From contig NZ_JAUSUJ010000002.1 of NCBI RefSeq assembly GCF_030813915.1, positions 124,001 through 188,000 on the forward strand: a DNA stretch of 64,000 bases, written 5' to 3'. This document shows positions 52,125-64,000 of the stretch, one piece after another. The DNA is from Rhodoplanes tepidamans. Lineage in GTDB: Bacteria; Pseudomonadota; Alphaproteobacteria; Rhizobiales; Xanthobacteraceae. Position 1 is the stretch's first letter, and every line of letters begins with the position of its first letter. Made by a program: the position numbers and the translations under genes. Below the pieces are notes generated by a model. It had not been told where the DNA came from. It saw only the letters and a list, made by a program, of their open reading frames with translations, and did not search any database.

Positions 52125-55100
52125 GTGAGCACGATTTCGTCCGTCTCGGGATACTCGTCCTACACGGTCACGCAGATCGCGAGCATGACCGAGTCCGAGG
52201 TCGAGTCGCTGACCGATGCCGACATCGACGGCCTGAGCGCGACCCAGATCGCCGCCTTCACGACCACCGAGATCACCTGGCTGAGCGAGACCCAGCTGGC
52301 CGGGCTCTCGACCACCCAGATGAAGGCGCTGACCACCTCGCAGATCACGGCGCTCGAGCCCGACCAGCTCTCCTTCTCGGTCACCCAGCTCGCGGTGCTG
52401 AGCGCCGCCCAGGTCCAGGCCTTCGACGACGAGGACGTCGCCGCGCTGACGACCACCCAGGTCGCCGGCCTGACCACCACCCAGATCGCCGCCCTCACCC
52501 TCGACCAGTTCGAGGACATGACCGAGGCGCAGATCGCCGCGCTGACCACCAAGCAGGTGGCGGCGCTGACCACCACGCTGATCGCCTCGCTCACCGGCAC
52601 CCAGCTCGCCTCGCTGAGCGCCACCCAGCTCGACGCGCTGACCAAGACCCAGCTCGCCGTCCTCTCCACGACCCAGATCGAGGAGCTGACGACGGCCCAG
52701 CTCTCGAAGCTGACCTCGACCGACATCTCCTGTCTCAAGACCACCCAGCTCGACGCGCTGACCACCGAGCAGCTCGCCAGCCTCTCGGCCACCCAGATCA
52801 AGGGCCTGACCTCGACCCAGGTCGCCTCGCTCGACCTCACCCAGATCGCCGCCCTGTCGGCGACCCAGGTCGCCGCCCTCACCTCGTCCGCCGTCAAAGG
52901 CTTCGACTCGACCCAGCTGGAGGCGCTCGACGCCACCCAGCTCGCCGGCCTGACGGCGGTCCAGCTCGCCGCCCTCACCACCACGGCACTCGACGGGCTG
53001 AGCCCGGACCAGCTCGCCGCCCTGACCACGACCCAGATCAAGGGCCTCTCCGCCACCGGCCTCGCCAGCCTGACCACCACCCAGCTGGCGGCGCTCGGCA
53101 CGACGCAGATCGAGGCGCTTACGGCGTCGCAGGTGAAGGGCCTCACGGTCGACCAGCTCGCGGCGCTGAGCGACGAGCAGTTCGCGGCGCTGACCTCGAC
53201 CCAGATCGCCGGCCTCACCCGCACCCAGATCGCCTCGCTGTCGACCGACCAGATCGCCGCCCTGACCACCACGCAGCTCGCCGGCCTGACGGCCGTCGGC
53301 ACCGCGGCGCTGACCGAGGAGCAGCTCGCGGCGCTGAGCACGACCCAGATCGCGAGCCTGACCGCGACGCAGCTCGGCGGACTGACCTCGACCCAGGCCG
53401 CCTCGCTGTCCGAATCCACGCTGGCCCTGCTGACCGCGACCCAGGTGGCGGCGCTTTCGGCCACGGCGATCGCGGCACTGAGCGCCGAGCAGGTGGCCGC
53501 GCTCGACAGCACCCAGATCGCCGCGATGACGGCGGCGCAGCTCAACGCCCTGACGGCGACGGCGCTCGGCGCCCTGACCACCACCGAGATCGCGTCGCTG
53601 ACGTCGACCCAGCTCGCCGGCCTGACCTCGACGGATCTCGGCTCGCTCAGCGTCGAGCAGTTCTCCGCCCTCACCACCACCCAGCTCGCCAGGCTGTCGT
53701 CGACCCAGGTGAAGGGGCTCACCGGCGACCAGCTGGAGACGCTGACCGGCGACCGGCTCGCGGCGCTGACGACCACCACGCTGGCCGGGATCACGGCGAC
53801 CCAGATCGCCTATCTCTCGACCGCGCAGATCGCCGCCCTCACCGCCACCCAGGCGGCGGGCCTGAGCGCCGCCGCCGTCGGCGCGCTGTCGGAGGACCAG
53901 ATCGCGGCCCTGTCGACCACCGTCCTGGCCGCCCTCACCACGACGCAGATCAAGGCCCTGACCAGCACCGAGGTCTCGGCGCTGACCGAGACCCAGGTCG
54001 CGTCGCTGTCAGCGGCCCAGATCGCGATGCTGACCAAGACGGCGATGGCCGGGCTGACCGACACCCAGATCGCTGGCCTGACCGCCACCCAGGTCGCGGC
54101 GCTGACCTCGACCCAGCTGTCCGGCCTGACCGCCGACCAGGTCGACGCGCTGACCGCGACCGAGATCGCGCTGCTCAACACCACGCAGCTCCGCGGGCTG
54201 ACCAGCACGGCGATCGGCGCGCTCACCACGACCCAGTTCGACTGGCTCGTCACCACCCAGCTCGCCGCCCTCACGGGCACCCAGATCAAGGGCCTCACCG
54301 GGGACCTGATCGCCGAGCTGACCGGCACGCGGCTCGCGGCGCTGACCCAGACCGAGCTCGCCGGCCTCACCACCACCCAGATCGGGCTGCTGGCGACCGA
54401 GCAGATCGCGGCGCTGACCACGACCCAGGTGAAGGGCCTCACCGCGACGGCGATCGCGGCGCTGTCGACCGAGCAGCTGCAGGCGCTCACCGGCACCCAG
54501 ATGAGCGCCCTCACCGCGACCCAGCTCCGGAGCTTCACCAGCACCGAGATCGCGGCGCTGACCAGCAGCCAGGTCGCCGCGCTCGCCACCACCCAGATCG
54601 CCGCCGTCACGGCGACCGCGATGGCCGGGCTGACCGAGGAGCAGATCGCGGCGCTGACCACCAAGCAGCTGCAGTCGCTGACCGCCGCCCAGGTCGCCAA
54701 GCTGACCACCACCACGGTCTCGGCGCTGTCGACCGACCAGATCGCCAGCCTGACCACGACCCAGGTCAAGGCGCTGTCGAGCACGACGATCGGCACGCTG
54801 GCCGAGACGCAGTTCGCGGCGCTCACCGCGACCCAGCTGGGGGTGCTGAGCACCGCCCAGGTGAAGGGGCTGACCGAGGAGCAGATCGATTCGCTCACCG
54901 GCACGCGGCTCGCCGCCCTGACCTCGACCGAGCTGACCGGGCTGACGACGACCCAGATCGACTGGCTGTCGGAGGAGCAGCTCGCGGCGCTGACGACGAC
55001 GCAGATCCGCGGCCTCACCAGCACCGGCATCGGGGCGCTCGACACCACCCAGATCGCGGCGCTGACCACCACCCAGCTCGCCGCGCTGACCACGACCCAG

Positions 55101-58100
55101 ATCAAGGGCTTCACCGGCACCGGCGTCGCCGCGCTCTCGCTGGAGCAGCTCGCCGCCTTCGCGACGACCCAGATTGCGGCGATCACCGCGACCGGCATCG
55201 CCGGCCTCACGCAGACCCAGATCGTCTCGCTGAGCAGCCGGCAGTTCGCGGCGCTCACCTCGGCCGAGATCGCGGCGCTCACGACCACCACGGTGGCGGC
55301 GCTCACCGAGACCCAGCTCGCCGCCCTCAGCACCACCCAGATGAGGGGGCTCACCAGCACGGCGATCGGCGCCCTGACGACGACGCAGCTCGCGGTGCTG
55401 TCGAGCACCCAGCTCGCCGCGCTCACCACCACCCAGGTGAAGGGGCTCGCGACCGAGCAGATCGTCGCCCTCTCCGAGACGCAGCTCGCCGGCCTGACCT
55501 CGACCGAGCTCGGCGCCCTGACGACCACCCAGGTCGCGGCGCTGACCACCACCCAGCTCGCCGCCCTGACCACGACGCAGCTCAGGGGGCTGACCTCGAC
55601 CGAGGTGGCGGCGCTCTCCTCGACCCAGCTCGCGGCGCTGTCGACCACCCAGATCGCGGCACTGACGTCGACCGCCGTCAAGGGACTGGAGACGGCCGAC
55701 GCCGCTTCCCTCACCACCACCCAGATCGCGGCGCTGACCACCACCCAGGTCGCCGCGCTGTCGACCACGGCGCTCGCCGCCCTGACCACCGAGGCGATCG
55801 CGGCGCTGACCACGACCCAGCTCGCCGCCCTCACCTCCACCCAGCTCGGCAGCCTCGAGGACACCCAGGTCGCGGCGCTGACCACCAGCCAGCTCGCCGC
55901 CCTGACCACGACCGCGCTCAAGGGGCTGACCTCGACCGAGGTCGCGGCCCTCGACGACACCCAGCTCGCCGTCCTCTCCAAGGCCCAGATCGCCGCGCTG
56001 TCGACCAAGGCGGTGACCGGCCTCAGCACGACCGATCTCGCCTCGCTGAGCGACACCCAGCTCGCCGCCCTGACCTCGACCCAGCTCGGGGCGATGAAGA
56101 CCACGCAGATCGCGGCGCTGTCCGAGACCCAGATCGCGTCGCTCACCACGACCCAGCTCAAGGGGCTGACCTCGACCGAGATCGGGGCCCTGACCGTCAC
56201 CCAGGTGGCCGCGCTGACCACGGCGCAGGTCGCCGCGCTGACCACCACGCAGATCAAGGGGCTCGACGCCGACCAGATCGCGGCGCTCACCGCGACCCAG
56301 CTCGCCGTGCTGTCGTCGACCCAGCTCGCCGCCTTCGCGACGACCAGCCTGGGCGATCTCGACGCCGACGCCTTCGCGTCGCTCACCACCACGCAGCTCG
56401 CGGCCCTGACCTCGACCCAGTTCGCGGCGCTGACCACGGCCCAGATCGGGGCGCTGTCGGCGACCCAGCTCGCCGCGCTGACCACCACCGAGCTGAAGGG
56501 CATGACGGCCGAGCAGGTCGCCGTCCTGACGACGACGCAGCTCGCGGCCCTGTCGTCGACCCAGATCGGCGCCCTGTCGTCCGACGCGGTGAGCGGCCTC
56601 ACCGCGACCGAGATCGCGGCGCTGAGCACGGCCCAGCTCCGCGCCATCACCGAGACCGCCATCGCCGGCCTGCTCGAATCCCAGATGGCGGCGTTCTCGA
56701 CCACCCAGATCGCCGCCCTGACGACCACCCAGGTGGCGGCGCTGGCGACCACGTCGCTCGACGGGCTCACGGCCGCCCAGGTCGCGGCGCTCGGCACCTC
56801 GCAGGTCGCGGTGCTGACCGCGACCCAGGTCGGCAGCCTCGCGTCCACCCAGGTGGCGGCGCTCACCACGGCGCAGATCGAGGCCCTGACGGCGACGACC
56901 ATCGCGGGCCTCGGGTCGGTCCAGGTCGAGGCGCTGACCGCGACCCAGGTCGCGAGCCTGAGCGCCTCGCAGGTGTCCGCCCTCACGACGACGGCTTTGG
57001 CGGGGATGACGGCGACCGGCGTCGCCACCCTGTCCACCACTCAGATCCAGGCGCTCACCAAGACCCAGATCGCCGCGCTCTCCGAGACCCAGGTGACGGC
57101 GCTGACCGTGACCCAGATCGCGGCGCTGAAGAGCAGCCAGCTCGCCGGCCTGACGGCGACCGAGGTCGGATATCTCTCCACGACTCAGCTCGCTGCCTTC
57201 TCGACCAGCCAGCTCGCCGCGCTCGCGTCCACCCAGATCGCCGGCCTGACCGCCACCCAGGCGAAGGCGCTGACCTCGACGCAGCTCGCCGCGTTCGACG
57301 AGACGCAGCTCGCGGCGCTGTCGACCTCGGCGGTCGCGGCGCTGACCACCACGGTGGTGGCGTCGCTCGGCACCGCCCAGGTCGCCGCCCTGACCGCGAC
57401 CCAGGTCGCCGCCCTGAAGGACACCCAGCTCGCGGCGCTGTCGACGGCCCAGCTCGCCGCCCTCACCACGACCGAGATCAAGGGCCTGACCGCGACCCAG
57501 GTCGCGGCGCTGACGACGACCCAGCTCGCCTCGCTGAGCACCACCCAGTTCTCGGCCCTGACCACCACGGCGATCGCCGGCCTGACCACCACCGAGATCG
57601 AGTCGCTGTCGGCGACCCAGCTGGCCGCGCTGACGACGACGCAGCTCGCCGGTCTGACCGACACCCAGGTCGAGGCGCTCACCGCCGACCAGTTCGCGCT
57701 CCTGACCGCCTCGCAGATCGCCGCGCTCGCGACCGACGGGCTCGACGGGCTGGAGACCGACGACCTCGCCGCGTTCACCACCACCCAGATCGCCGCGCTG
57801 ACCACCACGCAGGTGGCGTCGCTCGACGAGACCCAGATCGAGGCGCTGACCGGCGAGCAGATCGCCGCGCTGACCACCACCCAGGTGAAGGCGCTGTCGG
57901 CGACCCAGATCGCGGCGCTCGACACCACCCAGCTGGCGGCACTGACCACCACCCAGCTGGCGGCGCTCACCACCACGGCCGCGGCCGGCCTGACGACCAG
58001 CGAGATCCAGGCCCTCAGCGTCACCCAGCTCGCCAGCCTGACGGCGACCGCGCTCGGCGCGCTGTCGACCACCCAGGTCGCCGCCCTGACGGCGACCCAG

Positions 58101-60938
58101 CTGGCGGCGCTGACCACCACCCAGCTGCGCGGCCTCACCGCGACCGGGGTCTCGGCCCTGACCACGGCCCAGATCGCGGCGCTGTCGACGGCGCAGCTCT
58201 CGGCTCTCACCACCACCCAGGTCGGCGGGCTGACCGACACCCAGCTGGCGGCGCTGACCACGACCCAGCTCGCCGGCCTGACCACCACGCAGGTGGCGGC
58301 GCTGTCGACGACCGCGATCGACGGCCTGACCCAGGCCCAGATCGCCGCACTGTCGACCACCCAGGTCGCCGCCCTGACCTCGTCCGAGATCGCCGCCCTC
58401 GACGTCACCCAGATCGCCGCCCTGACGGTCGACCAGATCGCGGCGCTCGGCACCACGGCCGTGCAGGGCCTGACCGGCACCCAGATCGCGGCGCTGACGA
58501 CCACCCAGCTCGCCGTCCTCACCACGACGCAGATCGCGGCACTCACCACGACGGCCGTGCAGGGGCTGACCACCACCGAGATCGCCGCGCTCTCGACCAC
58601 CCAGCTCGGCGCCCTGACGGCGACCGAGATCGCCAACTTCACCACCACGCAGATCCGCAGCCTCTCCGAGACCCAGATCGCGTCGCTGACGACGACGCAG
58701 CTCAAGGGGCTGACCGCGACCGAGCTCGGCGCCCTGACCGTCACCCAGCTCGGCGCGCTGACCACCAGGCAGGTGGCGGGCCTGAGCGTGACGGCGATCG
58801 CCGGCCTCACCGAGACCCAGGTGGCGTCGCTGACCACGACGCAGCTCGGCGCCCTGACCACGACCCAGATCGCCGGCCTCTCGACCACCGGCATCCGCGG
58901 CCTCACCGCGGACGAGTTCGAGGTGCTGACCACCCGCCAGCTCGCCGCGCTGACCTCGACCCAGGTCGGCGCCCTGACGACGACCCAGCTCGCCTGGCTG
59001 ACCGAGACGCAGTTCGACCAGCTCGGCACCACGGCGGTCGCCGGGCTCACCTCGACCCAGGTGGCGGCGCTGTCGGCGACCCAGCTCGCCGGGCTCGACA
59101 CCACGCAGGTCGCCGCCCTGTCGACCTCGGCCATCGCCGGCCTGACCGCGACCGCGCTCGCCGGGCTGACCACCGGCCAGTTCGCCGCCCTCACCGCGAC
59201 CCAGATCGGCAGCCTGACCACCACCCAGGTGGCGGGCCTGTCGACCAGCCAGGTGGCGGCGCTGACCACGACCCAGCTCGCCGGCCTGACCCGGACCGAG
59301 GTCGGGGCCCTGACGGCGGACCAGATCGCCGCGCTCGGCACCAAGCAGATCGCGGCCCTCGGCACCACGGCGATCGCCGGCTTCGACTCGACCCAGGTCG
59401 CGAGCCTCTCGACCACCCAGATCGCGGCGCTGACCACCACCCAGATCGCCAACCTGACCACCACGGCCGTGAAGGGGCTGACGACCACCGAGATCGCCGC
59501 CTTCACCACCACGCAGCTCACCAGCCTGACGGCGACCCAGATCGGCGCGCTCACCACCGGCCAGGTCGCGGCGCTGACCACGGCCGAGCTCGGTACCCTG
59601 ACGACGACGCAGCTCGCCGGCCTCACCGACACCGGCGTCGCGGCGCTGAGCACGGCGCAGCTCGCCGCGCTGACGACGACCCAGCTCGCCAGCCTGTCGA
59701 AGACCGGCATCGGCGGCCTGACGGCGGAGCAGATCGCGGCGCTGACCACCACCCAGCTCGAGTCGCTGACCACCACCCAGATCGGCGCGCTCTCCACCAC
59801 GGCGATCACCAGCCTGACGGCGACCGAGCTCGCCGCGCTCACCGACACGCAGTTCAAGAGCCTGACCACCACCCAGGTCTCGGCCCTCACCGCGACCCAG
59901 GTCGCCGCCCTGTCCACCACCCAGATCGGCCTCCTGACGGCGACCGAGATGGCCGGCCTCACCTCGACCCAGGTCGGGGCCCTGACCGACACCCAGATCG
60001 CGGCGCTGACCACCACCCAGATCGCCAGCCTGTCGACCACCGGCATCGCCGGCCTCACCGCGACCCAGATCGCCGACCTGACGACCACCCAGCTCGGCGC
60101 CCTGACCGCGACCGAGGTGGCGTCGCTGACCAGCACGGCCATCGCCGGGCTCACCACGACGCAGTTCGCGGCGCTGACCACGACCCAGTTCTCCGCCATC
60201 TCGGCCTCCGGCATCGCCGGGCTCACCACCACCCAGGTCGCCGGCCTGACCACCACCCAGATCGACCAGCTCACCTCGACGGCGATCAGCGGCCTCACCG
60301 CCGCGCAGGTGTCGGCGCTCACCACCACCCAGATCGCCGAGCTCTCGGCGAGCGACATCGGCTGGCTGTCCGCCGTGGCGATCACGGGTCTCACCGAGGA
60401 GCAGATCGACGCGCTCACCGTGACCCAGATCAGCGGCCTGACCTCCACCCAGATCGGCTCGCTCACCACGACGGCGATCGGCTGGCTCGACACGACCGAC
60501 ATCGAGGCCCTGAGCGTGACCCAGCTCGCCGGCCTGGTGCGCATGCAGCTGCGGGTGCTCTCGGACGAGCAGCTCGCGGCGCTCTCCACCACCCAGATCG
60601 CCTCGCTGACCGAGACCCAGGTCGGCTCGCTGACCGTGACGGAGCTCGAGTCGCTGAGCGAGGCGCAGTTCGCGACGCTCACCTCGACCCAGATCGCCGG
60701 CATCTCGGCACTGGCCCTCACCAGCCTCGACCAGACGACGGTCTCGCAGCTCTCCGCCGTCCAGCTCAGCGGCCTGACCACGACGACGATGGCGCTGCTC
60801 GGCGAGACGTTCTTCGACCAGCTCTCGCTCGAGCAGATCGAGGCGTTCAACGCGACGCAAATTGACGCGCTGACCACGACTCAACTAGCGAGCATGTCCG
60901 AGGAGCAGCTCGCCGCCCTGAACGCCGCCCTGACCTGA
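52125..60938 (+). CDS. giant octapeptide-repeat protein, 2,937 residues
   Basis: After about 20 residues the whole protein is an unbroken array of octads, consensus L-[TS]-x-T-Q-[ILV]-A-[ASG]. Counting Leu-type anchors gives octads at 21-77, one 7-residue unit (77-84), then 355 in register to 2924. It is rich in Thr, Ser, Gln, Ala and Leu, with few charged, aromatic or Cys residues. Each unit has a helix N-cap-like T-x-x-Q box, so a solenoid of very short helices or a beta-solenoid is possible. There is no signal peptide, anchor or secretion signal at either end (MSTISSVSGYSSYTVTQ...; ...EEQLAALNAALT). GTG start at 52125, GAGG just upstream. The next gene is an OGT-like glycosyltransferase. 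Family and function are not recognised. Confidence 0.88.
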   Translation: MSTISSVSGYSSYTVTQIASMTESEVESLTDADIDGLSATQIAAFTTTEITWLSETQLAGLSTTQMKALTTSQITALEPDQLSFSVTQLAVLSAAQVQAFDDEDVAALTTTQVAGLTTTQIAALTLDQFEDMTEAQIAALTTKQVAALTTTLIASLTGTQLASLSATQLDALTKTQLAVLSTTQIEELTTAQLSKLTSTDISCLKTTQLDALTTEQLASLSATQIKGLTSTQVASLDLTQIAALSATQVAALTSSAVKGFDSTQLEALDATQLAGLTAVQLAALTTTALDGLSPDQLAALTTTQIKGLSATGLASLTTTQLAALGTTQIEALTASQVKGLTVDQLAALSDEQFAALTSTQIAGLTRTQIASLSTDQIAALTTTQLAGLTAVGTAALTEEQLAALSTTQIASLTATQLGGLTSTQAASLSESTLALLTATQVAALSATAIAALSAEQVAALDSTQIAAMTAAQLNALTATALGALTTTEIASLTSTQLAGLTSTDLGSLSVEQFSALTTTQLARLSSTQVKGLTGDQLETLTGDRLAALTTTTLAGITATQIAYLSTAQIAALTATQAAGLSAAAVGALSEDQIAALSTTVLAALTTTQIKALTSTEVSALTETQVASLSAAQIAMLTKTAMAGLTDTQIAGLTATQVAALTSTQLSGLTADQVDALTATEIALLNTTQLRGLTSTAIGALTTTQFDWLVTTQLAALTGTQIKGLTGDLIAELTGTRLAALTQTELAGLTTTQIGLLATEQIAALTTTQVKGLTATAIAALSTEQLQALTGTQMSALTATQLRSFTSTEIAALTSSQVAALATTQIAAVTATAMAGLTEEQIAALTTKQLQSLTAAQVAKLTTTTVSALSTDQIASLTTTQVKALSSTTIGTLAETQFAALTATQLGVLSTAQVKGLTEEQIDSLTGTRLAALTSTELTGLTTTQIDWLSEEQLAALTTTQIRGLTSTGIGALDTTQIAALTTTQLAALTTTQIKGFTGTGVAALSLEQLAAFATTQIAAITATGIAGLTQTQIVSLSSRQFAALTSAEIAALTTTTVAALTETQLAALSTTQMRGLTSTAIGALTTTQLAVLSSTQLAALTTTQVKGLATEQIVALSETQLAGLTSTELGALTTTQVAALTTTQLAALTTTQLRGLTSTEVAALSSTQLAALSTTQIAALTSTAVKGLETADAASLTTTQIAALTTTQVAALSTTALAALTTEAIAALTTTQLAALTSTQLGSLEDTQVAALTTSQLAALTTTALKGLTSTEVAALDDTQLAVLSKAQIAALSTKAVTGLSTTDLASLSDTQLAALTSTQLGAMKTTQIAALSETQIASLTTTQLKGLTSTEIGALTVTQVAALTTAQVAALTTTQIKGLDADQIAALTATQLAVLSSTQLAAFATTSLGDLDADAFASLTTTQLAALTSTQFAALTTAQIGALSATQLAALTTTELKGMTAEQVAVLTTTQLAALSSTQIGALSSDAVSGLTATEIAALSTAQLRAITETAIAGLLESQMAAFSTTQIAALTTTQVAALATTSLDGLTAAQVAALGTSQVAVLTATQVGSLASTQVAALTTAQIEALTATTIAGLGSVQVEALTATQVASLSASQVSALTTTALAGMTATGVATLSTTQIQALTKTQIAALSETQVTALTVTQIAALKSSQLAGLTATEVGYLSTTQLAAFSTSQLAALASTQIAGLTATQAKALTSTQLAAFDETQLAALSTSAVAALTTTVVASLGTAQVAALTATQVAALKDTQLAALSTAQLAALTTTEIKGLTATQVAALTTTQLASLSTTQFSALTTTAIAGLTTTEIESLSATQLAALTTTQLAGLTDTQVEALTADQFALLTASQIAALATDGLDGLETDDLAAFTTTQIAALTTTQVASLDETQIEALTGEQIAALTTTQVKALSATQIAALDTTQLAALTTTQLAALTTTAAAGLTTSEIQALSVTQLASLTATALGALSTTQVAALTATQLAALTTTQLRGLTATGVSALTTAQIAALSTAQLSALTTTQVGGLTDTQLAALTTTQLAGLTTTQVAALSTTAIDGLTQAQIAALSTTQVAALTSSEIAALDVTQIAALTVDQIAALGTTAVQGLTGTQIAALTTTQLAVLTTTQIAALTTTAVQGLTTTEIAALSTTQLGALTATEIANFTTTQIRSLSETQIASLTTTQLKGLTATELGALTVTQLGALTTRQVAGLSVTAIAGLTETQVASLTTTQLGALTTTQIAGLSTTGIRGLTADEFEVLTTRQLAALTSTQVGALTTTQLAWLTETQFDQLGTTAVAGLTSTQVAALSATQLAGLDTTQVAALSTSAIAGLTATALAGLTTGQFAALTATQIGSLTTTQVAGLSTSQVAALTTTQLAGLTRTEVGALTADQIAALGTKQIAALGTTAIAGFDSTQVASLSTTQIAALTTTQIANLTTTAVKGLTTTEIAAFTTTQLTSLTATQIGALTTGQVAALTTAELGTLTTTQLAGLTDTGVAALSTAQLAALTTTQLASLSKTGIGGLTAEQIAALTTTQLESLTTTQIGALSTTAITSLTATELAALTDTQFKSLTTTQVSALTATQVAALSTTQIGLLTATEMAGLTSTQVGALTDTQIAALTTTQIASLSTTGIAGLTATQIADLTTTQLGALTATEVASLTSTAIAGLTTTQFAALTTTQFSAISASGIAGLTTTQVAGLTTTQIDQLTSTAISGLTAAQVSALTTTQIAELSASDIGWLSAVAITGLTEEQIDALTVTQISGLTSTQIGSLTTTAIGWLDTTDIEALSVTQLAGLVRMQLRVLSDEQLAALSTTQIASLTETQVGSLTVTELESLSEAQFATLTSTQIAGISALALTSLDQTTVSQLSAVQLSGLTTTTMALLGETFFDQLSLEQIEAFNATQIDALTTTQLASMSEEQLAALNAALT
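52164..60920 (+). repeat. 24-bp tandem repeat array (about 363 units)
   Basis: The coding array has a 24-bp period (one octad). The third positions vary freely (acc/acg, ctg/ctc, cag fixed), while L, T, Q and A codons persist, showing selection on the protein rather than recent copying. A longer order is visible. Lys/Arg-Gly pairs (KGL, RGL) recur at 4 and 6 octads in alternation over much of the array, giving an 80-residue (240-bp) super-repeat. Because the repeat lacks stop triplets in other frames, all frames stay open over kilobases. Confidence 0.85.
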
Positions 60939-61106: not shown

Positions 61107-63131
61107 ATGACCGACACGCTCGCCGCCGCTTCCGTCGTTCCCGTGCCCGGCGCGGCCTTCGGGGTGATGGACCTCATCCGGGCGGCCGAGACCCTCAAGC
61201 AGACCGGCCAGCATCGGGCCGCCGAGAGCCTCTACGCCGGCTGGATCCAGGACAATCCGGACGACACGCTGCTCTATGCCGTGCTGTTCAACTACTCGGT
61301 GCTGCTGACCGAGTCCGGCAATCTGGTCCAGGCCGGCGAGTGCCTGCGCCGGGCGATCTCGCTCAACCCGGACTTCATGCCGGCCTACATCAATTTCGGC
61401 CGCATCCACGAGCGTTCCGGCGCGATCGGCGACGCGGTCGGGCAGTGGCTCGCCGTCACCGAGAAGCTCGGCGTGATCACCGGCACCAACGTCTCCTACA
61501 AGACGACCGCGCTGAACCAGGCCGCGCGCGCCCTCGAGGCGGTCAATCAGGACGCGGCGGCCGAGGACGTGCTGCGGCAGAGCCTCGACATCGACCCGCA
61601 CCAGCGCGAGGTGGCGCAGCACTACGTCGCGGCGCGGCAGCGCCAGTGCGAGTGGCCCGTGATCGTGCCGTGGGAGCGGGTCGGCCGCGAGACGCTGGCG
61701 CGCGGCATGTCGCCACTGTCGGCGGCCGCCTACACGGACGACCCGATCTTCCATCTCGCCGGCGCCTGGCACTACAACAAGACCGACGTCGGCATGCCCC
61801 CGGTGGTGATCGAGGACTGGCCGCGCGCCCGCGCGGCGGAGGGCCCGCTGCGGATCGGCTACGTGTCCTCGGATCTGCGCGAGCACGCGGTCGGCCATCT
61901 GATGGCCGAGGTGTTCGGCCTGCACGACCGGTCCAGGGTCGAGGTGTTCGCCTATTACTGCGGCGTGCCGGCCGCCGATCCGCTGCACGAGCACTACAAG
62001 GCGACCGCCGACCAGTTCGTCTCGATCAGCCAGATGGACGACGCGAGCGCGGCCCGGCGGATCGCCGACGACGGCATCCAGATTCTGGTCGACGTCAACG
62101 GCTACACGCGGGACGCCCGCACCCGCCTGTTCGCGGCCCGGCCGGCACCCGTGATCGTCAACTGGCTCGGCTATCCCGGCACCATGGCGAGCCCGTATCA
62201 CCACTACATCGTCGCCGACGACTTCGTGATTCCGGAGAGTCACGAGCTCTACTACACGGAGAAGGTGCTGCGGCTGCCCTGCTATCAGCCGAACAACCGC
62301 AAGCGCGTGATCGCCGAGAAGACGCCGACGCGGGCCGAGATGGGCCTGCCCGGGGACGGCACGGTGTTCTGCTCGTTCAACGGCACCCACAAGCTGACGC
62401 GCTTCACCTTCGACCGCTGGTTGGCCATCCTCGGCGGCGTGCCGGGCAGCGTGCTGTGGCTGCTCAGCGGCAGCGAGGCCGTCCACGAGCGGCTGCGGTC
62501 CTACGCCAAGAGCCGCGGCATCGCGCCGGAGCGGCTCGTCTTCGCCGCCAAGATGGCCAATCCCGAGCACATGGCGCGCTACCCGCTCGCCGACCTGTTC
62601 CTCGACTCGACGCCCTACGGCGCCCACACGACGGCCTCCGACGCGCTGTGGATGGGCGTGCCGGTGCTGACCTGCGCGGGCCGGTCCTTCGCGTCGCGGG
62701 TCTGCGGCAGCCTGATCCGGGCCGCCGGGGTTCCGGAGCTCGTCTGCGAGTCGGCGGAGAGCTTCGTCGCGCAGGGCATCGCGCTCGGCCGCGACCGCGC
62801 CCGGCTGGCCGCCCTGCGCGAGCGCATCCTGGCCGGACGCGACACCTGCACGCTGTTCGACACGCCCGGGCTGGTGCGCGGGCTCGAGGATCTCTACGGC
62901 CGGATGTGGAACGACTACCGAAACGGAGCGCTGCCGCGGCCGGACCTCCTCAATCTGGACGCCTATTTCGAGGTCGGCGTCGGCGTCGACCACGAGGAGA
63001 CCGAGGTGCAGACCATCGCCGACTATCACGGCTGGTGGCTGGACAAGCTCGCCCGCCGCGACGCGGTGCGGCCGCTCCCCGACGACGCGCGGCTGATGGC
63101 GGTACGCGCGAGCCGCCGCGGCGCCGGCTGA
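61107..63131 (+). CDS. TPR-containing O-GlcNAc transferase-like glycosyltransferase (GT41, SPINDLY family)
   Basis: This 674-residue protein has TPR helices at about 20-180 (AAESLYAGWIQDNPDD, AGECLRRAISLNPDFMPAYINFGRI) and a GT41 catalytic region. Key matches to human OGT are GYVSSDLREHAVGHLM (H260 at the H498 position), VNWLGYPGTM, FCSFNGTHKL (K429 at the K842 position), and LDSTPYGAHTTASDALWMGVPVLT (H507, D512), then ASRV. The family transfers GlcNAc or other sugars to Ser/Thr of cytoplasmic proteins; TPRs select the substrate. GGAGAG precedes the ATG. The adjacent Thr/Ser-rich giant protein is the likely substrate, by position and composition only. Confidence 0.92.
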   Translation: MTDTLAAASVVPVPGAAFGVMDLIRAAETLKQTGQHRAAESLYAGWIQDNPDDTLLYAVLFNYSVLLTESGNLVQAGECLRRAISLNPDFMPAYINFGRIHERSGAIGDAVGQWLAVTEKLGVITGTNVSYKTTALNQAARALEAVNQDAAAEDVLRQSLDIDPHQREVAQHYVAARQRQCEWPVIVPWERVGRETLARGMSPLSAAAYTDDPIFHLAGAWHYNKTDVGMPPVVIEDWPRARAAEGPLRIGYVSSDLREHAVGHLMAEVFGLHDRSRVEVFAYYCGVPAADPLHEHYKATADQFVSISQMDDASAARRIADDGIQILVDVNGYTRDARTRLFAARPAPVIVNWLGYPGTMASPYHHYIVADDFVIPESHELYYTEKVLRLPCYQPNNRKRVIAEKTPTRAEMGLPGDGTVFCSFNGTHKLTRFTFDRWLAILGGVPGSVLWLLSGSEAVHERLRSYAKSRGIAPERLVFAAKMANPEHMARYPLADLFLDSTPYGAHTTASDALWMGVPVLTCAGRSFASRVCGSLIRAAGVPELVCESAESFVAQGIALGRDRARLAALRERILAGRDTCTLFDTPGLVRGLEDLYGRMWNDYRNGALPRPDLLNLDAYFEVGVGVDHEETEVQTIADYHGWWLDKLARRDAVRPLPDDARLMAVRASRRGAG

Positions 63132-63182: not shown

Positions 63183-63599
63183 TCACAGATGCATGACGCC
63201 GAGGCCGATCCGCTCGTGATTGGTGAGCTGGTGCATGGCGGAATCGCCGTAGGCGGCGATCGCCACCCACTTGCCGTCGGAGACGATCGCCACCTTGATC
63301 TTCAGGCTCGAGCTGTCGACGACCGCGTTCGTCAGCCCGTGCCACGCCTCCAGCCCGGCGTGGATCACCGCGTGGATGGCGCCGGCCCGCTCCTGGACGG
63401 TGTCGGCCTTGAGCGCGGCGCCGATCAGCGAGCGGACGAACACCCGCTCGATGTCGCCCTTGCGGCCGCTGACATAGGTCACGGTCAGCCTGACCCGGTG
63501 GTCCGCGGCGACCTGCTCCTTGATCCTGATTTCCTCGTCGTCGCTCGACATGGCCGCGATCATGGCCAGCTTGCCGATGCGGTTGGTGGCGATGTCCAT
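63183..63599 (-). CDS. HutP-family protein
   Basis: This 138-residue protein (MDIATNRIGKLAMIAAMSSDDEE...) resembles Bacillus HutP along its length: RIGKLA start, SLIGAALKADTVQ, HAVIHAGLEAWHGLTNAVVDSSSLKIKVAIV, WVAIAAYGD and the closing HERIGLGVMHL. HutP is an RNA-binding antiterminator that needs L-histidine and Mg, contacted by the conserved His residues near the C-terminus. No histidine-utilisation genes are in the window. GAGGTGA precedes the ATG at 63599. It is convergent with the glycosyltransferase gene (51-base gap). The role in this organism is unknown. Confidence 0.7.
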   Translation of the reverse strand: MDIATNRIGKLAMIAAMSSDDEEIRIKEQVAADHRVRLTVTYVSGRKGDIERVFVRSLIGAALKADTVQERAGAIHAVIHAGLEAWHGLTNAVVDSSSLKIKVAIVSDGKWVAIAAYGDSAMHQLTNHERIGLGVMHL

Positions 63600-64000
63600 G
63601 GAATCACCTCGGGACCGGGGGAACGGGGCGCCGTGTCCCGCGCCGGCGTCGAAGTCGAGAGATACCGCAGTGCCTCCCCACGTTGAAGCGGTCTTCGTTC
63701 TGATCATTTCCGCTGTGCGTTTTCGGAGGGGCTCCGCCGAACGTCCTGACAAATCAGGACCATCCCGAGCCCGGCATCCGGGATTCTGCTTGCATGGATG
63801 TCGATTGACACGGCCGGCGGGCGAGAACACAGTCGCGCCGCCTGAGACGGTGTGGCCGCCGTCGCCGGGCACGCGAGACGGAAGCGATCGGCCACAAGTC
63901 TCCCCGGGCCCCCGCGTCCCTGGACGCGAGAGCCGGTCCGGTTCCCACCGAGTGAACACGCGACCTTCGTGACGGTGCATCTCCAGCAGTGACGTGCCTC
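63600..64000. other. gene-free right end of the window with a short dyad
   Basis: About 400 bases with no convincing gene; open frames here are Arg/Pro-rich shadows. The stretch 63690-63820 is less GC-rich. It contains a perfect 7-bp inverted repeat (63743-63749/63754-63760, gtcctga/tcaggac, loop caaa), possibly an operator for the HutP-family gene or for a gene beyond the window. Confidence 0.4.

Follow-up and report, generated by a model that had tools for sequence, protein, structure and literature searches.

A giant octad-repeat protein and an adjacent OGT-like GT41 glycosyltransferase as a candidate substrate and enzyme pair

A gene for a giant repeat protein and a gene for a GT41 glycosyltransferase lie next to each other in a 64,000-nucleotide stretch of DNA from Rhodoplanes tepidamans (contig NZ_JAUSUJ010000002.1, positions 124,001–188,000; the whole stretch is referred to as the window), and the same pairing is found in many homologous loci. 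The first gene (positions 52125–60938, plus strand, GTG start, no internal stop) encodes 2937 residues, organized in eight-residue units (octads). The next gene, on the same strand and 169 bases on (61107–63131), encodes a TPR and GT41 protein of 674 residues, the proposed dedicated partner. In the reading that we favor, and hold to be rather probable, this OGT-like enzyme acts in the cytoplasm and coats the Ser/Thr-rich rod with sugar, and the rod is then exported as a fiber or coat. The broader proposal is of a widespread and apparently mobile two-gene system, in which a giant rod of short helices receives sugar at hundreds of Ser/Thr residues from OGT-like GT41 enzymes of a specialized clade. 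It is more tentative, and its chances are close to even. The pairing is what is new here; the repeat itself is already catalogued in Pfam.

The octads are in strict register over nearly the whole protein. Eight octads (residues 13–76, positions 52161–52352) are followed by a single 7-residue unit (residues 77–83, 52353–52373), and then by 356 octads (residues 84–2931, 52374–60917), for a total of 364, all on the plus strand. An earlier reading from the letters alone (the sequence-only reading) had described such in-register octads and a single 7-residue unit near residues 77–84. Both are borne out, and its figure of about 363 octads was right in size although not exact. The 7-residue unit, or one-residue gap, is common to 17 of the 27 aligned N-termini, the window included, and is therefore a conserved feature of part of the family. 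Position 1 is Leu, Phe, Ile, Met or Val, and position 6 is Ile, Leu, Val, Phe, Met, Ala or Thr, in all 356 octads. With Thr left out at position 6, the best phase contains 354 octads; in 500 shuffles of the residues, the count averages 52 and never exceeds 66.

The individual positions have distinct preferences (n = 356). Position 1 is Leu in 329 octads, position 2 is Thr or Ser in 308, and positions 3 and 4 are Thr in 157 and 256, respectively. Position 5 is Gln in 250, position 6 is Ile, Leu or Val in 325, position 7 is Ala in 218, and position 8 is Ala or Gly in 264. An N-cap box in every unit, as first claimed, is an overstatement for position 2 (308/356), but Ser or Thr is present somewhere in positions 2–4 in 352 of the octads. 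These three positions hold 787 Ser/Thr residues over the 356 octads, and the entire protein has 906. The protein has a mass of about 293 kDa, is almost cysteine-free, and is acidic, with 181 Asp and Glu versus 59 Lys and Arg and a computed pI of 4.05. Asn makes up 0.2% of its residues. No signal peptide or anchor was seen by eye, in agreement with the sequence-only reading.

Chance or a frame artefact as the source of the octads is ruled out by the phase test, by the GC content of 0.99 at third positions in this frame, and by homologs of the same make-up. Further long open frames that overlap the gene (for example 54009–60884 on the minus strand) are taken for side effects of codon bias. A fresh expansion or an assembly error is also ruled out, because the 356 octads include 309 different ones, and several DNA sequences encode each of the five most frequent. 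Among the 59 repeat ORFs that end inside their locus, the median length is 2272 residues and the maximum 4861, with starts and frameshifts uncurated.

The repeat ORF is a member of Pfam family PF20080 (ALTTAQ_rpt), with E = 0 and 1351.1 bits against the curated cut-off of 26.4, over 110 stretches, and the earlier statement that it has no known domain does not hold. PF20080 is the same repeat, given by Pfam without a role, and the GT41 partner is absent from the family description shown. NCBIfam has one weak match to the ORF, under its cut-off. In the PDB, the 120-residue chain of HeliScrew4 (entry 9zem) has the same octad with the same spacing, as 109 residues are aligned without a gap (E 2.9e-20). 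From this comparison, the fold of the repeat is probably already in the PDB. The protein had also been considered unassignable to a characterized family. This stands for the role but not for the family, and of a match to a family with known structure and role, the structure is probably covered by 9zem and the role is not. HeliScrew4 has mostly T/S-P-E/D-Q/K at positions 2–5, whereas the window protein has mostly T-T-T-Q, and its chain is just 120 residues long, compared to 2937.

An AlphaFold2 model of an internal 160-residue stretch, based on an alignment with 33 further stretches from this protein, shows one helix per octad, five or six residues long, at a mean pLDDT of 95.0. Its long last helix (residues 139–159) may be an end effect. 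The model of the first 200 residues, with 26 homologs, has a mean pLDDT of 95.9 and the same short-helix pattern from about residue 9, including all the octads ahead of the 7-residue unit; no other domain is present in this model. The repeat protein is predicted with high confidence to be an alpha solenoid in which each octad makes one very short helix, and these models back the solenoid or fiber suggested earlier.

A search of the PDB with Foldseek finds mesothelin as the best match of both models, with E 9.6e-3 and a probability of 0.97 for the top row of the internal stretch, and E 3.4e-4 and 1.00 for the N-terminus. The mesothelin rows (chains of 148–288 residues) have identities of 12–20% and TM-scores of 0.18–0.46, which are too low for the same fold. 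Entry 9zem is absent among the Foldseek matches listed for the two models. A leucine-rich repeat has by definition one strand per unit of 20–30 residues, and the models here contain only helices, in 8-residue units. The Pfam matches to LRR families (including PF23952, weak), CAAP1, sigma-70 and EndoS, as well as weak matches to LRR chains in the PDB, are attributed to chance resemblance of a periodic sequence rich in Leu, since the models are free of strands. There is no match of the repeat ORF to RTX nonapeptide repeats (PF00353) or to flagellin families up to E 1 in Pfam, and a 400-residue stretch has no match among 50,697 phage records. Some plasmid records annotate the repeat protein as a 'heme utilization protein'. 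The repeat proteins of a Pseudomonas plasmid (L024) and a Propionivibrio bin (L104) share a similar non-repeat tail at the end, and that of L104 matches no Pfam family at E ≤ 1e-5.

The downstream enzyme, which the sequence-only reading had missed, is placed in GT41 by its match to PF13844 (E 5.4e-82, 276.2 bits versus a cut-off of 25) and belongs to the O-GlcNAc transferase family. TPR profiles match residues 59–174 (61281–61628, plus strand), the proposed substrate-holding part. The catalytic part covers residues 243–610 (61833–62936, plus strand), with PF13844 beginning at 243 and human OGT aligned over 241–391 and 407–610. Human OGT, XcOGT and SPINDLY are among its solved relatives, and these enzymes and TtOGT have TPR, GT41 and a catalytic lysine, as in the window enzyme. 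Lys429 (codon 62391–62393, plus strand) is aligned with the catalytic lysine of OGT, which is Lys842 in the human enzyme according to PMC4683255; the match of the two numbers is our own count from the alignment. The lysine is invariant (1.00) in all 72 clade rows that have a residue at this site, and also in 27 other rows. Between 60900 and 63200, a scan for consensus signals detected neither a terminator nor a promoter. This genome has two more GT41 genes on another contig (G000 contig 22, 19180–24923, locus L032), one of them with an internal stop codon, and both group with unlinked enzymes in a quick tree.

The conservation of flanking genes, a check proposed in the sequence-only reading, supports the pairing. 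The 76 homologous loci come from an octad query on named genomes, through the best 80 of 317 confirmed candidates by likeness to the window octads; the sample is not random, and a few loci are from one genome. A GT41 gene is present in the fetched DNA of 59 of these 76 loci (best of 317 candidates). Where at least 2.5 kb is available on both sides, it is present in 36 of 43 loci and absent in 7. In the 17 loci without GT41, these 7 included, the DNA ends inside the repeat gene on the 3′ side in 8 and on the 5′ side in 2. For the 59 loci and the window, the best GT41 is downstream on the same strand in 44 of 60. It is upstream in the rest, on the opposite strand in 12 and on the same one in 4, and the gap to the repeat gene is under 1 kb in 55 of the 60. 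Seven of the eight plasmid regions picked from 56 matching records also have GT41. Chance adjacency is very unlikely, because 98 of the 198 genomes of the family have no match to the window GT41 at E ≤ 0.001. The system is seen in Pseudomonadota, Desulfovibrionaceae and one Verrucomicrobiota bin. A Candidatus Marinimicrobia bin (L085), outside Pseudomonadota, contains a 1701-residue octad gene with no GT41 in flanks of 6 kb and 8 kb.

The repeat-linked GT41s form a separate clade in the quick tree of 104 GT41 rows, which is midpoint-rooted, has some long branches and leaves out the solved OGTs. One group (SH-aLRT 97) contains 72 of the 77 linked rows and none of the 27 other rows (25 unlinked and 2 from the window genome). 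The linked GT41s outside this group are those of L065, L070, L096 and L114 and the second copy in L106. The window enzyme differs from the OGTs in belonging to a separate group of this tree, found beside one kind of gene. It groups with enzymes from Pleomorphomonadaceae, Rhodospirillales, Insolitispirillum and Desulfovibrionaceae, as well as from two bins, one delta-proteobacterial and one of Spartobacteria. This grouping suggests transfer across phyla, with binning errors possible. At seven loci (L023, L050, L051, L053, L054, L094 and L103), two GT41 genes are close by, each belonging to a different main branch of the linked group, as if two enzymes serve one rod. Conservation reaches 95% or more at 75 positions of the linked clade, Lys429 included. 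Fifteen of the 18 clade-specific positions fall ahead of residue 241, within the part made up of TPR and linker; for the TPR part, the alignment to unlinked enzymes is less sure than for the catalytic part. Examples are Glu102 and Pro184 (both 1.00) and Trp46 and Trp114 (both 0.96). We propose that the TPR and linker part would hold the substrate.

The repeat and this type of GT41 also occur together in genomes. PF20080 is found in 6 of the 198 family genomes, and a GT41 above 600 bits in 5, all among those six; the scores drop from 621.8 to 368.9 bits. In the 385 genomes of the class, PF20080 is found in 6 and GT41 at E ≤ 1e-130, a threshold chosen after seeing this gap, in 4, again all among the six. 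With both sets pooled (the window genome is in each), all 8 distinct genomes with window-type GT41 have the repeat, and 8 of the 11 repeat-bearing genomes have window-type GT41 while three do not. The PF20080 repeat was not found in the five other genomes of the genus that were searched. The control genome, that of Caulobacter vibrioides, has matches to both the repeat and the GT41 family.

In the window, genes for a phytochrome kinase and a response regulator are upstream of the repeat gene, and a gene with a match to HutP, followed by carboxyltransferase-type genes, is downstream of GT41. The HutP-match gene is a 265-residue ORF (63183–63980, minus strand) with E 1.8e-29 in Pfam and 37 bits in NCBIfam, against a cut-off of 155. 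Neighbor genes in the 76 loci were counted by protein clusters, with cluster representatives checked. An NAD-epimerase/dehydratase cluster is present in 13 loci and a UDP-galactopyranose mutase cluster in 10, and these neighbors fit a supply of sugar nucleotides. The pair is located beside flagellin and hook genes in Pseudorhizobium flavum (L030), and near a FliI/YscN ATPase in Rhodovastum (L025).

In the proposed mechanism, each octad of the rod would form one short helix, with the hydrophobic positions 1 and 6 making the core and the Ser/Thr residues of positions 2–4 at the start of the helix. The TPR domain of the GT41 would grip the nascent or unfolded chain in the cytoplasm, and the enzyme would add sugar to many of the Ser/Thr residues at positions 2–4, before or during folding. 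The glycosylated rod would then exit the cell, through a type I secretion system (T1SS) in those relatives whose loci include ABC and HlyD genes, and act as a surface or extracellular fiber or coat. If the chain folds before the GT41 acts, some Ser/Thr residues may be out of reach. We infer that the GT41 modifies the rod, and with this the residues and the sugar involved, the export and the final function. The enzyme–substrate reading is favored because the GT41 is directly downstream and has a lysine that is aligned with the catalytic one of OGT and never varies in the clade, and because of the linkage, the separate clade, the co-occurrence and the large number of Ser/Thr residues. It is weakened by the 7 of 43 loci without GT41, the 3 of 11 repeat genomes without the window type, and the five linked GT41s outside the main group. 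Helix capping prefers Asp, Asn, Ser and Thr, then Pro and Glu. Natural octads (n = 22,225) have 3% Asp at position 2, 3% Pro at position 3 and 3% Glu at position 4. As one argument for glycosylation, the T-T-T at positions 2–4 is not the choice that capping by itself would be expected to prefer: HeliScrew4 mostly has Pro and Glu/Asp at positions 3 and 4, and natural octads rarely do.

The GT41 might instead act on other proteins or build a glycan, with the rod as a scaffold, docking partner or regulator and not the acceptor, which we consider unlikely. The sugar-nucleotide genes near part of the loci agree with such an arrangement, and so does the Ser/Thr content of the rod. Its frequencies at positions 2, 3 and 4 are 0.77, 0.70 and 0.62 in loci with GT41 (70 sequences) and 0.72, 0.71 and 0.55 where no GT41 was found (22 sequences, several on cut contigs), about the same, a result against the glycosylation reading. 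However, Ser and Thr are very abundant at fixed positions of the rod, and the GT41s of known function (OGT, SPINDLY and HMW1C) are described as enzymes that modify proteins. A third view, in which the rod is unmodified, its Thr rows bind a surface (ice, mineral or polysaccharide) and the GT41 is a passenger of a mobile gene pair, is very improbable. Some antifreeze proteins bind ice by Thr ladders, a parallel to the regular Ser/Thr positions here, but a passenger would leave unexplained a pairing kept across distant taxa and a separate GT41 clade.

It is also quite improbable that the rod, glycosylated or bare, remains in the cytoplasm as a spacer or as a cytoskeletal or scaffold filament. This would be consistent with the lack of a signal peptide visible by eye, with 63 of 76 relatives having no HlyD in the DNA that was retrieved, some of which stops at a contig end, and with the window itself, where no exporter (ABC, HlyD) is present among the proteins scanned by Pfam, a part of the window ORFs. 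However, T1SS substrates as a rule carry no N-terminal signal, and proteins exported by T1SS are usually acidic and almost cysteine-free, as the rod is. HlyD-type genes are found in 13 of the 76 loci, 12 of these with GT41, and in Methylobacterium sp. Leaf118 (L047) the ABC, HlyD, rod and GT41 genes are consecutive on one strand. These loci suggest type I export in relatives with HlyD. The window locus lacks the linked ABC and HlyD genes. Its genome has four HlyD genes above the family cut-off, and on contig 4 a T1SS ABC gene 47% identical to that of Leaf118 (683 bits; the next has 237), which lies next to a protein of its own that carries RTX and serralysin-type domains. Export in the window organism is weakened by the lack of a linked exporter and by this ABC gene having an RTX-type protein of its own.

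If the GT41 modifies the rod and the rod is exported, the pair would work like FlmG and flagellin or HMW1C and HMW1, as a member of neither system. According to PMC7591256, FlmG of Caulobacter has TPR and a glycosyltransferase and modifies flagellins in the cytoplasm, a dedicated cytoplasmic enzyme for an exported protein, as proposed here. Its substrates are flagellins, whereas the rod is not a flagellin. HMW1C is likewise a glycosyltransferase of the cytoplasm that serves a single large protein destined for export (PMC3012730, PMC3983070). HMW1 is an Asn-linked two-partner adhesin, and the rod, with its low Asn content, is not of this type. In a literature search by title and start of abstract, with most subscription papers and bioRxiv preprints outside its reach, no paper among those listed was recognized as treating the repeat or a link to GT41. 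The words HeliScrew and ALTTAQ found no paper within this search, and HeliScrew is absent from the available passages of PMC12775518.

Bacterial OGT relatives are common (100 of the 198 family genomes match the window enzyme at E ≤ 0.001), yet finding their natural substrates is difficult. In the case of TtOGT, neither modified proteins nor in vitro activity could be identified (PMC4683255). A linked and co-occurring candidate substrate makes the question of bacterial GT41 substrates directly testable. If the broader proposal of a two-gene system is true, a bacterial GT41 clade would gain a dedicated natural substrate, and the rod a place as a new glycoprotein-fiber architecture. A rod of about 364 in-register steps of eight residues would be a very simple fiber, and its length could follow the number of steps added.

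The repeat also has a period of 16 residues, or two octads, with a score of 117.8 in the window compared to a maximum of 24.5 in 300 order shuffles. In positions 52374–60917, Gly is present at position 8 in 11% of the even octads against 35% of the odd ones, and Lys at position 7 is nearly confined to odd-numbered octads. The two-octad period exceeds all 60 shuffles in 36 of 83 sequences, the window included, and not in the rhizobial ones. It is read as a trace of duplication in even blocks and not as a structural unit, with other readings possible. In another genome (G372, contig 3, 856214–861604), the ALTTAQ profile matches at regular intervals of 576 bases, or 24 octads, a sign of recent duplication in large blocks.
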